Below are positions 4,919-26,702 of a stretch of DNA of 64,000 bases, piece by piece (position 1 is the first letter of the stretch; every line of letters begins with the position of its first letter). The notes below the pieces were generated by a model. It saw only the letters and a list, made by a program, of their open reading frames with translations. It ran no database searches and had not been told where the DNA came from. A program made the translations under genes and the position numbers. The stretch covers positions 3,897,200 to 3,961,199 of the forward strand of contig OX639973.1 in the NCBI GenBank assembly GCA_951828385.1, read 5' to 3'. The DNA comes from an uncultured Poribacteria bacterium. Its GTDB lineage: Bacteria; Poribacteria; WGA-4E; WGA-3G.

Positions 4919-4947
4919 TTGACAAAATTCGCAAAATGTGTTTTAAT
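4919..4947 (+). promoter_or_regulatory. Sigma70-type promoter of tnpB element 1
   Basis: TTGACA at 4919-4924, a 17-bp spacer, TTTAAT at 4942-4947. The same -35, spacer length and -10 occur in front of the second tnpB at 26674-26702, which argues that this is a functional promoter. Confidence 0.8.
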
Positions 4948-4952
4948 AGATA

Positions 4953-5045
4953 TATCACAGTGGCAGACATTTCCAGCACAATCGCTTGATTGTGTGTCTG
5001 CCTACCCACTGGAAAGGGGTTAACTCTGTGATACTGTGAAAGTCT
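4953..5045 (+). ncRNA. Structured tnpB leader RNA, copy 1 (nested stems, candidate regulatory element)
   Basis: Starting about where transcription would begin, TATCACAG (4953-4960) pairs with CTGTGATA (5026-5033). Inside it GGCAGACA (4962-4969) pairs with TGTCTGCC (4995-5002), which encloses CACAATC/GATTGTG (4977-4983/4988-4994). A third helix is possible between ACCC (5004-5007) and GGGT (5017-5020). A second near-copy of the outer 3' arm (CTGTGAAA, 5034-5041) sits just before the ATG and offers an alternative pairing. The layout recurs at the second tnpB with compensatory changes. No known riboswitch class was recognised. Confidence 0.65.
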
Positions 5046-6167
5046 ATGAAAACGTATAAGTACCCACTTGGGAAACAATCTAATACGATCCGCATTGGCA
5101 ATCTGCTTGACGATATGTGGCAGGTGCATTTCTATTTTCATACGTGGCAGCGTGAGCGTCATAAAGAGGGGCTGCCGTATGTCAACTTTGAGGGCATGTG
5201 TGACCACGTAAAAGTTTTGAAAGAGACGACGAACCCACATTGGAATGCCTTGCCGAGTCAAGCGATCCAACAAGAACTGAGACGGATTCATAAGGCTTAT
5301 GACAGATTTTTCAAGAAACTTGGTGGCAGACCGAAAATTAAACCGAGACACAAGTTTAAGTCTATCACTTACCCTGGTGAAGCGGGGTGGTATCTGAAAA
5401 ACAATCGTATCACGTTGACTTTTCGTAAATGGAATCCGAAGACACAGAAGTGGCAGTTTGATAAAGTGCCTTATACGTTCCATAAACACCGTCAATGGCA
5501 TGGAACTATCAGCACTCTCACAATCAAACGAGACGCTTGCGGTGATTATTGGCTTTGTATCACAACGACTTATACAGATTTCAAACCGCTGCCGACAACA
5601 GGTAAAAGCGTTGGGGCAGACTTCGGCATGAAAGACGCATACTTGACACTTAGCACGGGTGAAAAGATACAACACCCACAACCTTTGAAAGCGAACTTGA
5701 ACAAACTTCGGTCTCTCAACAAAGAACTTAGCCGTAAGCAAAAAGGTTCTAACGGTTGGTGGCGTTGCGTGAGACAGCTCGCACGGCTTTATCGGAAAAT
5801 CAGCAACCAACGCAAAGACTTTCATTGGCAACTTGCCTCTAAACTTTGTCCGAAGTTTGATAGGATTTTCCTTGAGACGTTGAACCTTGACGGCATGAAA
5901 CGCCTCTGGGGTCGTAAAGTCTCTGACCTCGCCTTCTACCAGTTTGTTGAGATATTGGCATATAAGTGTCAAAAACATAAGCGTCATTTTAAAAAAGTCG
6001 GACAATGGACAGCTACAACAAAACCTTGTAGTAATTGCGGTTTTCATAACGAAACCCTAACATTGGACGATAGGCAGTGGACATGTCCGGCATGTGGTTC
6101 ACACCACGATAGAGACATCAACGCTGCGATAAACATTTTGCGGGCAGGGATGGTTTCCGTTATCTAA
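5046..6167 (+). CDS. tnpB: TnpB RNA-guided nuclease, IS605 OrfB family
   Basis: A 373-residue TnpB with an apparently complete RuvC site: D192 in VGADFG, E277 in IFLETLNL, and D357 in HDRDINAAINI. A zinc finger is formed by CSNC (C328, C331) and CPAC (C347, C350). Family members use a right-end-derived omega RNA to cut DNA next to a TAM and help the element persist. Length is typical of compact TnpB. ATG 5046 follows GAAAGTCT, a weak ribosome site, and the leader before it is strongly structured. There is no tnpA nearby, so mobility would need a transposase in trans. Confidence 0.93.
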   Translation: MKTYKYPLGKQSNTIRIGNLLDDMWQVHFYFHTWQRERHKEGLPYVNFEGMCDHVKVLKETTNPHWNALPSQAIQQELRRIHKAYDRFFKKLGGRPKIKPRHKFKSITYPGEAGWYLKNNRITLTFRKWNPKTQKWQFDKVPYTFHKHRQWHGTISTLTIKRDACGDYWLCITTTYTDFKPLPTTGKSVGADFGMKDAYLTLSTGEKIQHPQPLKANLNKLRSLNKELSRKQKGSNGWWRCVRQLARLYRKISNQRKDFHWQLASKLCPKFDRIFLETLNLDGMKRLWGRKVSDLAFYQFVEILAYKCQKHKRHFKKVGQWTATTKPCSNCGFHNETLTLDDRQWTCPACGSHHDRDINAAINILRAGMVSVI

Positions 6168-25302: not shown

Positions 25303-25480
25303 TGTCAAGTACCCCCGACTAAAGTCGGGGGCTTGTAGGGGCTAACCCCAACAAGCCAGTTGTAGCAACTGATTTCTCGTTTCATAGAGGATGGTATTCC
25401 ATACCTCTCCACGAAGGACGCAAGCCGCCCTGTTTAGAATATTAATAGCCGCGTTGTGGTCGCGGTCAAGTTTCAAGCCA
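25303..25480 (-). ncRNA. Probable omega RNA of TnpB element 2
   Basis: By family rule the guide RNA covers the 3' part of tnpB and the right end. Here the stop is only about 10 bases from the terminal hairpin, so most of the RNA would overlap the coding sequence. Position inferred. Confidence 0.4.
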
Positions 25481-26550
25481 CAAGATTTACAATGGAACAC
25501 ACGTTGAGACAACTTCAGTTTAGTTTTAGACTTTTGGCAACACTCCGAACAGGTTTGGCTCGTGTGATGTGGAGGCACTTGATGGAAATGTTTACCATCG
25601 CGTTTTGCCACCCAGTCGCACCAGTCAAAGAACATACCCCACGATGCGTCAGAGATGGACTTGGCGAGGTAGCGGTTCTTAACCATGTTGCTCGGTTTCA
25701 GTTTCTCGGCAACAACGGCATCAAAGCCGTTATGGTGAAAGAGTTTGTAAGCCGTTTTTGCGATAAAATCAAGCCGTTGACAGGCAACAATATCCGCCTG
25801 CTTTGCCAACGCGTCTTTCGCTTTATACCAGCGTTTGCTTCGGTATTGCTTACGCGAGAGGTCGCGGTGAAGTTTCACAAGCTTGTGTTCCGCTTGTCGA
25901 TAGAAACGTGGGTTCGGGACCTTCTCCCCAGTAGAAGTCGTCAGAAAATCGTGTGTGCCAACATCCACACCACAAGCGGACTTCGGAATACAAGGCATCG
26001 TATCCGGCACTTCGCAAACGATAAAGCAATACCACCCTCGCGCCGTCTTTTTCAGCGTGACCTCTTTCGGGTCTCCAATGAGCGGACGGTGCTGGCGGAT
26101 TTTGACTTCACCTAACTTCGGTACTTTCAGCATGTTATGCCGTTTACCTGTTTCACGGATAGGATTCTGACGGACTCTTTCGTTCTTTACTTTATATTTT
26201 CGCAGTTCCCACGTCAACGAGCGGACAGAGGACTTGTAGCGGGGATAGCCTTTTTTCTCCGCTCCCTCTTTACAACGGCGTTGAAAATGCTCGTGTGCAG
26301 CGTTGACGCGTTTGATTGTGGATACCTGCATATCCTGCGGGTGTTTAGAGTAGTGAGTATTAGATTCACGGAGTTTCTTCAGATGGTTGATCTGGTCATA
26401 CATCGACACAGAAACACTCCCATACGCCCACATCTGCGAACGCATTTGGAGCATGTAGTTCTGCAACTGTTTCTGGTGACGCAACTCCGAAAACAACCAC
26501 TGTTCTTCTGTTTTCGTAGGATATACACGATATTTAAATGCTTGTTTCAT
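25342..26550 (-). CDS. tnpB: TnpB RNA-guided nuclease, IS605 OrfB family (second type)
   Basis: 402 residues with the N-terminal helix-turn region KYRVYPTKTEEQWLF typical of OrfB. RuvC residues are D196 in CGVDVG, E282 in VVAEKLKPSNM, and D364 in LDRDHNAAINIL. The zinc finger is CSEC (C334, C337) with CKSC (C354, C357). All key residues are present, so it is probably active. It differs clearly from the TnpB at 5046-6167 in length and N-terminus, yet it shares that gene's promoter and structured leader. The ATG lacks a clear ribosome site because the preceding bases are part of the leader stem repeat. Confidence 0.93.
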   Translation of the reverse strand: MKQAFKYRVYPTKTEEQWLFSELRHQKQLQNYMLQMRSQMWAYGSVSVSMYDQINHLKKLRESNTHYSKHPQDMQVSTIKRVNAAHEHFQRRCKEGAEKKGYPRYKSSVRSLTWELRKYKVKNERVRQNPIRETGKRHNMLKVPKLGEVKIRQHRPLIGDPKEVTLKKTARGWYCFIVCEVPDTMPCIPKSACGVDVGTHDFLTTSTGEKVPNPRFYRQAEHKLVKLHRDLSRKQYRSKRWYKAKDALAKQADIVACQRLDFIAKTAYKLFHHNGFDAVVAEKLKPSNMVKNRYLAKSISDASWGMFFDWCDWVAKRDGKHFHQVPPHHTSQTCSECCQKSKTKLKLSQRVFHCKSCGLKLDRDHNAAINILNRAACVLRGEVWNTILYETRNQLLQLACWG

Positions 26551-26668
26551 GATCTATCACGTATCACGTCTTTAACCCCTTGTAAGTGGGTAGGCAGACA
26601 CATAACCGGGGTCCCCACCCGTTACTGGGAAGGGGGCGGCTACGCTTACAATGTCTGCCAACGTGATA
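26551..26668 (-). ncRNA. Structured tnpB leader RNA, copy 2
   Basis: Read on the minus strand, TATCACGT (26661-26668) pairs with ACGTGATA (26562-26569), and GGCAGACA (26652-26659) with TGTCTGCC (26593-26600). They are followed by TACCCACT...AAGGGGTTAA, as in copy 1. The outer stem differs from copy 1 at two positions on each side and stays paired (CAG/CTG there, CGT/ACG here). The outer 3' arm is again doubled (second copy 26555-26562), ending four bases before the ATG. The inner loop is longer and contains a GC-rich palindrome. Confidence 0.65.
26608..26637. repeat. GC-rich palindrome (family 3) in the leader loop
   Basis: GGGGTCCCCACCC-GTTACT-GGGAAGGGG. The reverse complement recurs at 56369-56397, so a dispersed hairpin sits inside the loop of the tnpB leader without breaking its stems. 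Confidence 0.75.
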
Positions 26669-26673
26669 CACAT

Positions 26674-26702
26674 ATTAAATCACAATTTGATTGAAATGTC
26701 AA
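26674..26702 (-). promoter_or_regulatory. Sigma70-type promoter of tnpB element 2
   Basis: On the minus strand TTGACA (26697-26702), a 17-bp spacer, TTTAAT (26674-26679), the same as in element 1 while the spacers differ in sequence. Confidence 0.8.

Follow-up and report, generated by a model that had tools for sequence, protein, structure and literature searches.

Introduction

Solo tnpB genes are very common, and to our knowledge little is understood of how they are expressed without tnpA or of how genomes tolerate dozens of RNA-guided nucleases. The locus studied here poses this question through two dissimilar tnpB genes that lie behind similar 5′ leaders. Both are found in a window of 64,000 nt, the whole stretch of DNA analyzed, from an uncultured Poribacteria bacterium (GCA_951828385.1, contig OX639973.1, positions 3,897,200 to 3,961,199, forward strand; GTDB lineage Bacteria; Poribacteria; WGA-4E; WGA-3G; genome size 6.66 Mb). 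A first-pass annotation had proposed that the leader is selected or exchanged among elements, and that it might switch between two folds at the start codon under riboswitch-like or autoregulatory control. We find a structured, covarying 5′ RNA that is part of a large family, and the earlier reading is partly supported. The leader stands before hundreds of Poribacteria tnpB genes, is apparently a new RNA family, and probably sets the amount of TnpB nuclease made.

Results

Leader 1 runs on the plus strand from 4919 to the ATG at 5046, and leader 2 contains the same elements on the minus strand (26702–26550). Every element named in the first-pass annotation was found in the sequence. Each leader starts with the promoter TTGACA-17-TTTAAT (leader 1, 4919–4947, with boxes at 4919–4924 and 4942–4947; leader 2, 26674–26702). 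The outer 8-bp stem, P1, opens with TATCACAG (4953–4960) in leader 1 and TATCACGT (26661–26668) in leader 2, and its 3′ arms, CTGTGATA (copy a, 5026–5033) and ACGTGATA, have changed together with the 5′ arms; these pairs covary across the family. The inner stem P2 is identical in both (GGCAGACA at 4962–4969 and TGTCTGCC at 4995–5002 in leader 1; P2–P3 stem at 26593–26659 in leader 2), as is the common TACCCACT...AAGGGGTTAA. The P1 3′ arm is doubled beside the ATG, with copy b reading CTGTGAA (5034–5040, start codon 5 nt on) in leader 1 and CGTGATA in leader 2, where the two copies span 26555–26569. The downstream genes, tnpB 1 (5046–6167, plus strand, 373 aa) and tnpB 2 (25342–26550, minus strand, 402 aa), encode OrfB_IS605 and Cas12f1-like TNB domains; with OrfB_IS605 and zinc-finger domains and a left and a right end on either side, such genes qualify as IS605-type solo tnpB elements. 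Identity between the two leaders is 74% across 104 aligned positions, as against 30.7% for the TnpB proteins, and the element ends are also unlike, so the whole region is not a recent or simple duplication. Single-strand folding without pseudoknots gives both leaders greater stability than dinucleotide-shuffled sequences (z −3.3 and −4.3) and prefers P1 paired with copy a.

Three further elements were absent from the first-pass annotation. P3 is a hairpin within P2 (CACAATC-GCTT-GATTGTG, 4977–4994), and P4 (ACCC...GGGT) is a second hairpin (5004–5020 in leader 1, 26575–26591 in leader 2). A pseudoknot joins the P4 loop to the bulge between P2 and P3: in leader 1, TTTCCA directly after GGCAGACA (4970–4975) pairs with TGGAAA after TACCCAC (5010–5015), and in leader 2 TTGTAA (26651–26646) pairs with TTACAA (26585–26580). 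The P3 loop of leader 2 also carries a GC-rich insert of ~26 nt, CCCCCTTCCCAGTAACGGGTGGGGACCCC (26638–26607). Similar inserts occur in ~12 other copies (L016, L021, L027, L034, L037, L068-L070, L072, L073, and L086), whose leaders belong to different TnpB clades.

A covariance model built on P2 and P3 only, which left P1, P4, and the pseudoknot as independent tests, detected 41 type 1 copies in the source genome, the last of them weak. Matches were present in 47 of 85 Poribacteria genomes: the source genome, all 37 others in its genus, eight elsewhere in the family, and one in another family of the order. A pattern scan covering 84,980 species, each represented by a single genome, returned only Poribacteria among the matches listed. 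When the regions upstream of 79 other TnpB loci, taken from viral contigs, were scanned with a structural descriptor, the only hits appeared to be due to chance. Rfam 15 yielded no match at gathering score in the window and 14 type 2 loci (a second leader family described below) save an unrelated tRNA, and a more permissive search with leader 1 turned up nothing but sub-threshold hits on the opposite strand. A search of the open-licence literature returned no paper in which Poribacteria and TnpB are both named. Among known RNAs, an HDV-like ribozyme is excluded by topology, as the 3′ strand of the pseudoknot lies inside the P4 loop. Complementarity between TACCCACT of the leader and AGTGGGT at the right end, seen in 19/70 type 1 and 0/57 type 2 elements, was judged incidental.

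Across 80 copies, standard pairs filled 96.7% of cells and 28 of 33 pairs had changed on both sides, with a covariation score of 0.452 (0.170 in shuffled alignments, ≤0.064 in slid registers). We then applied our own implementation of an R-scape-like test (not R-scape itself; APC-corrected G-test, 148 distinct sequences), with 60 alignments simulated along a FastTree tree as the null. The best eight of 4,560 column pairs comprised four in the pseudoknot, one in P3, and one each for P1:copy b, P1:copy a, and copy a:copy b. These scores exceeded those of all 60 simulated alignments. Covariation thus exceeds a phylogeny-aware null, as expected of a structured RNA under selection, and persists in the additional homologs. 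At helix positions G-U outnumbered A-C combinations 114:27 in type 1 and 110:17 in type 2, indicating that the folded strand is the transcribed one. A P2 variant, GGAAACC/GGTTTCC, occurs in one or both arms in L023, L025, L096, L115, L123, L090, L130, and L183, and elsewhere within the leader in L099 and L121; these variants are possibly template switching in progress. Within the source genome, the two pseudoknot strands of a copy match each other perfectly in 36 of 41 cases, and strands from different copies do so in 67 of 1,640 combinations.

The promoter defines where this RNA should begin. A strict scan did not call the promoter of leader 1, where the −10 box TTTAAT has 5 of 6 positions. 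Family-wide, 96 of 97 distinct members reached a sigma-70-type score of at least 9/12 (16/97 when shuffled), and in 75 of 96 the −10 box ends 5 nt before the P1 5′ arm; with this spacing, the arm should form the RNA 5′ end. A search for terminator-like sites near leader 1 found none, which points to translational rather than termination control.

The doubled 3′ arm is a family trait. The P1 arm has two complementary sites in 96 of 99 type 1 leaders, at an exact 7-nt period in 90, compared with 20/102 when the P1 arm was swapped and 3/102 with shuffled tails; L140 has a single 3′ copy only. Copy b ends 5 nt before the start codon in 73 leaders, and a Shine-Dalgarno-like sequence near the start was detected in 2 of 88 type 1 leaders. 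Predicted duplex energies of P1 with the two copies are near-equal (−7.2 and −7.5 kcal/mol). The P1:copy b pairing is itself constrained (93.2% paired, score 0.312 vs 0.105 shuffled), so that an alternative helix can cover the ribosome-binding region or start codon, and both pairings covary.

The same constraint recurs in a second leader family. L204, a tnpB locus of the source genome without a type 1 leader, has a leader of different sequence and the same architecture. DNA similarity revealed relatives of this type 2 leader in 18 of 83 genomes, and a second covariance model did so at E ≤ 1 in 54 of 83. Here copy b holds the start codon itself: GCATTGCT in P1 pairs with AGCAATGC, GCATGGCT with AGCCATG, and GCATAGTT with AACTATG, and in 38 of 42 leaders the start codon lies at the expected place inside copy b. 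The type 2 structure is 97.2% paired, with 23 of 32 pairs changed on both sides, and P1:copy b is 94.1% paired (0.149 vs 0.073 shuffled). Because this recurs in different sequence, type 2 provides the best support for gating of the start site. The two types have a common topology and no conserved unpaired nucleotides.

Leaders move between elements. In the source genome, a type 1 leader stands at near-constant distance before 38 of 52 tnpB genes above the Pfam cut-off, and 12 of the 14 others lie directly behind a tnpA- or recombinase-like frame (judged on translated upstream sequence; one Y1-like frame of 139 aa was read out). L013, which has a leader and no tnpA, and L195, a tnpA-tnpB element, have in common a left end (63 bp, 81%) and, from the second base of the start codon, tnpB and the right end (1,208 bp, 91%); between them, the promoter and leader of L013 occupy the place of tnpA in L195, up to the start codon. 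The conserved left-end segment thus lies upstream of promoter and leader. Likewise, L061 (type 1) and L280 (type 2) have the left end and the tnpB-right end in common, and not the leader. On a tree of 82 TnpBs the leader types are patchily spread: at least 8, 5, and 5 changes across well-supported branches are needed to account for type 1, type 2, and absence of a leader, respectively. These leader swaps, together with the covariation, bear out the proposal that the leader is selected as RNA and exchanged among differing tnpB elements.

Of the type 1 leaders, 163 of 172 are followed by sequence with TnpB homology, as are 25 of 38 of type 2. Other genes include GIY-YIG nucleases (PF01541) behind seven type 2 leaders (L219, L220, L272, L277, L387, L389, and L390), a likely GIY-YIG relative behind a type 1 leader (L190), a trypsin-like secreted protein, and a Gp157 protein; some non-tnpB genes may be chance neighbors remaining after tnpB loss. 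At the type 2 GIY-YIG loci copy b reads ATA and the real start codon is further downstream; copy b is retained nonetheless, and the doubling may thus also serve another role. L109 (type 1) and L285 (type 2) precede small putative membrane proteins that look alike, having a signal-like N terminus and a membrane segment, for which Pfam gave no match. At L287-L294 (e.g. L287, 2623–2880), two to three units of ~84 nt with the same fold form head-to-tail arrays, with promoter-like sequence ahead and no consistently placed gene after; several have common flanking sequence beside a transporter-like gene. These tandem arrays are possibly stand-alone RNAs.

Discussion

We consider it reasonably probable, from comparison of the leader sequences, that the promoter and leader form an exchangeable cassette that gates tnpB translation, with the 5′ arm of P1 pairing with either of the tandem 3′ copies. 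A self-contained promoter and leader would express tnpB where the element has no tnpA. The transcript would begin at the P1 5′ arm and fold into a pseudoknotted core of P2–P3 and P4, in which the P4 loop contacts the P2/P3 bulge. Pairing of the arm with copy a would close the core and leave the start site free, whereas pairing with copy b would block initiation, in type 1 by covering the ribosome-binding region and in type 2 by covering the start codon. Folding of the core, or a bound factor, may bias the choice and result in low or conditional translation of TnpB. Of the two folds suggested by the first-pass annotation, the mutually exclusive pairings are borne out by covariation of both; that the RNA switches between two states in cells, that P1:copy a is the permissive one, and what biases the choice, we infer from the sequences. 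Several observations speak against such a gate: Shine-Dalgarno-like sequences are nearly absent from type 1, copy b persists before GIY-YIG genes whose start codon is more distant, single-strand folding of the window leaders prefers copy a, and L140 carries one 3′ copy.

The leader could instead be a passive damper and 5′-end stabilizer, keeping TnpB expression low and the message stable with no two-state switching. The stable fold and the position of P1 at the expected RNA 5′ end agree with this, and in IS200 a stem-loop in the tnpA 5′ UTR sequesters the ribosome-binding site (PMC12594629). It leaves the second copy unexplained, with its fixed 7-nt period, covarying arms, and presence in 96 of 99 leaders, and we regard it as possible but unlikely.

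Control by a protein is less probable still. TnpB, by autoregulation, or a host RNA-binding protein would recognize P2 and P4, and tandem arrays would act as decoys titrating it. The division of the leader into conserved and variable parts is in keeping with such recognition: P2 and the flanks of P4 are conserved in sequence, whereas the pseudoknot strands vary (27 distinct strands vs 12 for P2 among the 41 copies of the source genome). Gene-less arrays of two to three units exist, and part of a TnpB mRNA has been reported to inhibit cleavage (Nety et al., PMC10278001). Yet one leader type serves TnpBs with identities down to 23%, as well as GIY-YIG and other genes; such diversity makes TnpB itself unlikely as the ligand, and the few non-tnpB genes behind the same leaders speak against the TnpB-specific autoregulation that had been suggested. 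A broader role we put forward tentatively and consider rather unlikely as a whole: a single RNA fold, present in at least two versions of unlike sequence, would be a phylum-specific regulatory system and a portable start-site switch serving the mobile TnpB and GIY-YIG nucleases along with some other genes, and stand-alone arrays would act in trans, perhaps by sequestering a regulator common to them.

A metabolite-binding riboswitch under translational control, the other proposal of the first-pass annotation, appears very improbable. In its favor, the pseudoknotted core leads into a putative expression platform at the start codon, and the P2–P3/P4/pseudoknot topology is reminiscent of the ZTP class. 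Against this, Rfam gave no match, most of the genes served encode mobile nucleases and no metabolic pathway unites them, and types 1 and 2 share topology and no unpaired nucleotides, so that a conserved ligand pocket is not evident.

IS605 elements transpose as single strands, and template switching is able to make hairpin arms match. A DNA hairpin for single-strand transposition, or compensatory changes from template switching, which the one-sided GGTTTCC/GGAAACC changes in P2 resemble, is nonetheless the least credible explanation and already disfavored, since covariation extends to the pseudoknot and to a three-way set that includes a direct repeat, P1 sits at the expected transcription start, G-U exceeds A-C, and promoter and leader come only after the conserved left-end segment.

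For one phylum, a promoter-leader cassette that replaces tnpA and ends at the start codon would be a compact and abundant answer to the expression of solo tnpB. Its gate of tandem copies may represent a design principle, and the strong covariation makes the leader a good new Rfam candidate.

Comparison with known systems places the leader apart from each of them. The ω-RNA derives from the 3′ portion of the tnpB mRNA; it is located at the 3′ end of the gene and finishes at the right end of the element, which excludes it here, as the Poribacteria leader lies 5′ of tnpB and is common to very different TnpBs and some unrelated genes. The ZTP (pfl) riboswitch likewise has a P2–P3-like stem whose bulge pairs with the loop of the next hairpin before the start codon. 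The Rfam covariance models gave no match to that class; the leader also differs in the absence of common pocket nucleotides, its hypervariable pseudoknot, and an enclosing P1 with two competing 3′ copies. In IStrons, too, a structured RNA module (a group I intron) is joined to a tnpB element, whereas the leader is ~100 nt, has no Rfam group I intron match, stands before the start codon, and gives no evidence of splicing. That TnpB is regulated through its own mRNA is an earlier proposal (PMC10278001). A precedent for a 5′ structure that hides the start site is IS200 tnpA, where a gene of the IS200/IS605 family also carries a structured 5′ leader, with the antisense RNA art200 and Hfq (PMC12594629); Nety et al. 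suggested that TnpB might be under comparable control (PMC10278001). In IS200 an inverted-repeat stem-loop controls tnpA; in Poribacteria it is tnpB that carries the leader, whose core contains a pseudoknot, whose 3′ arm is doubled, and which is exchanged among elements.
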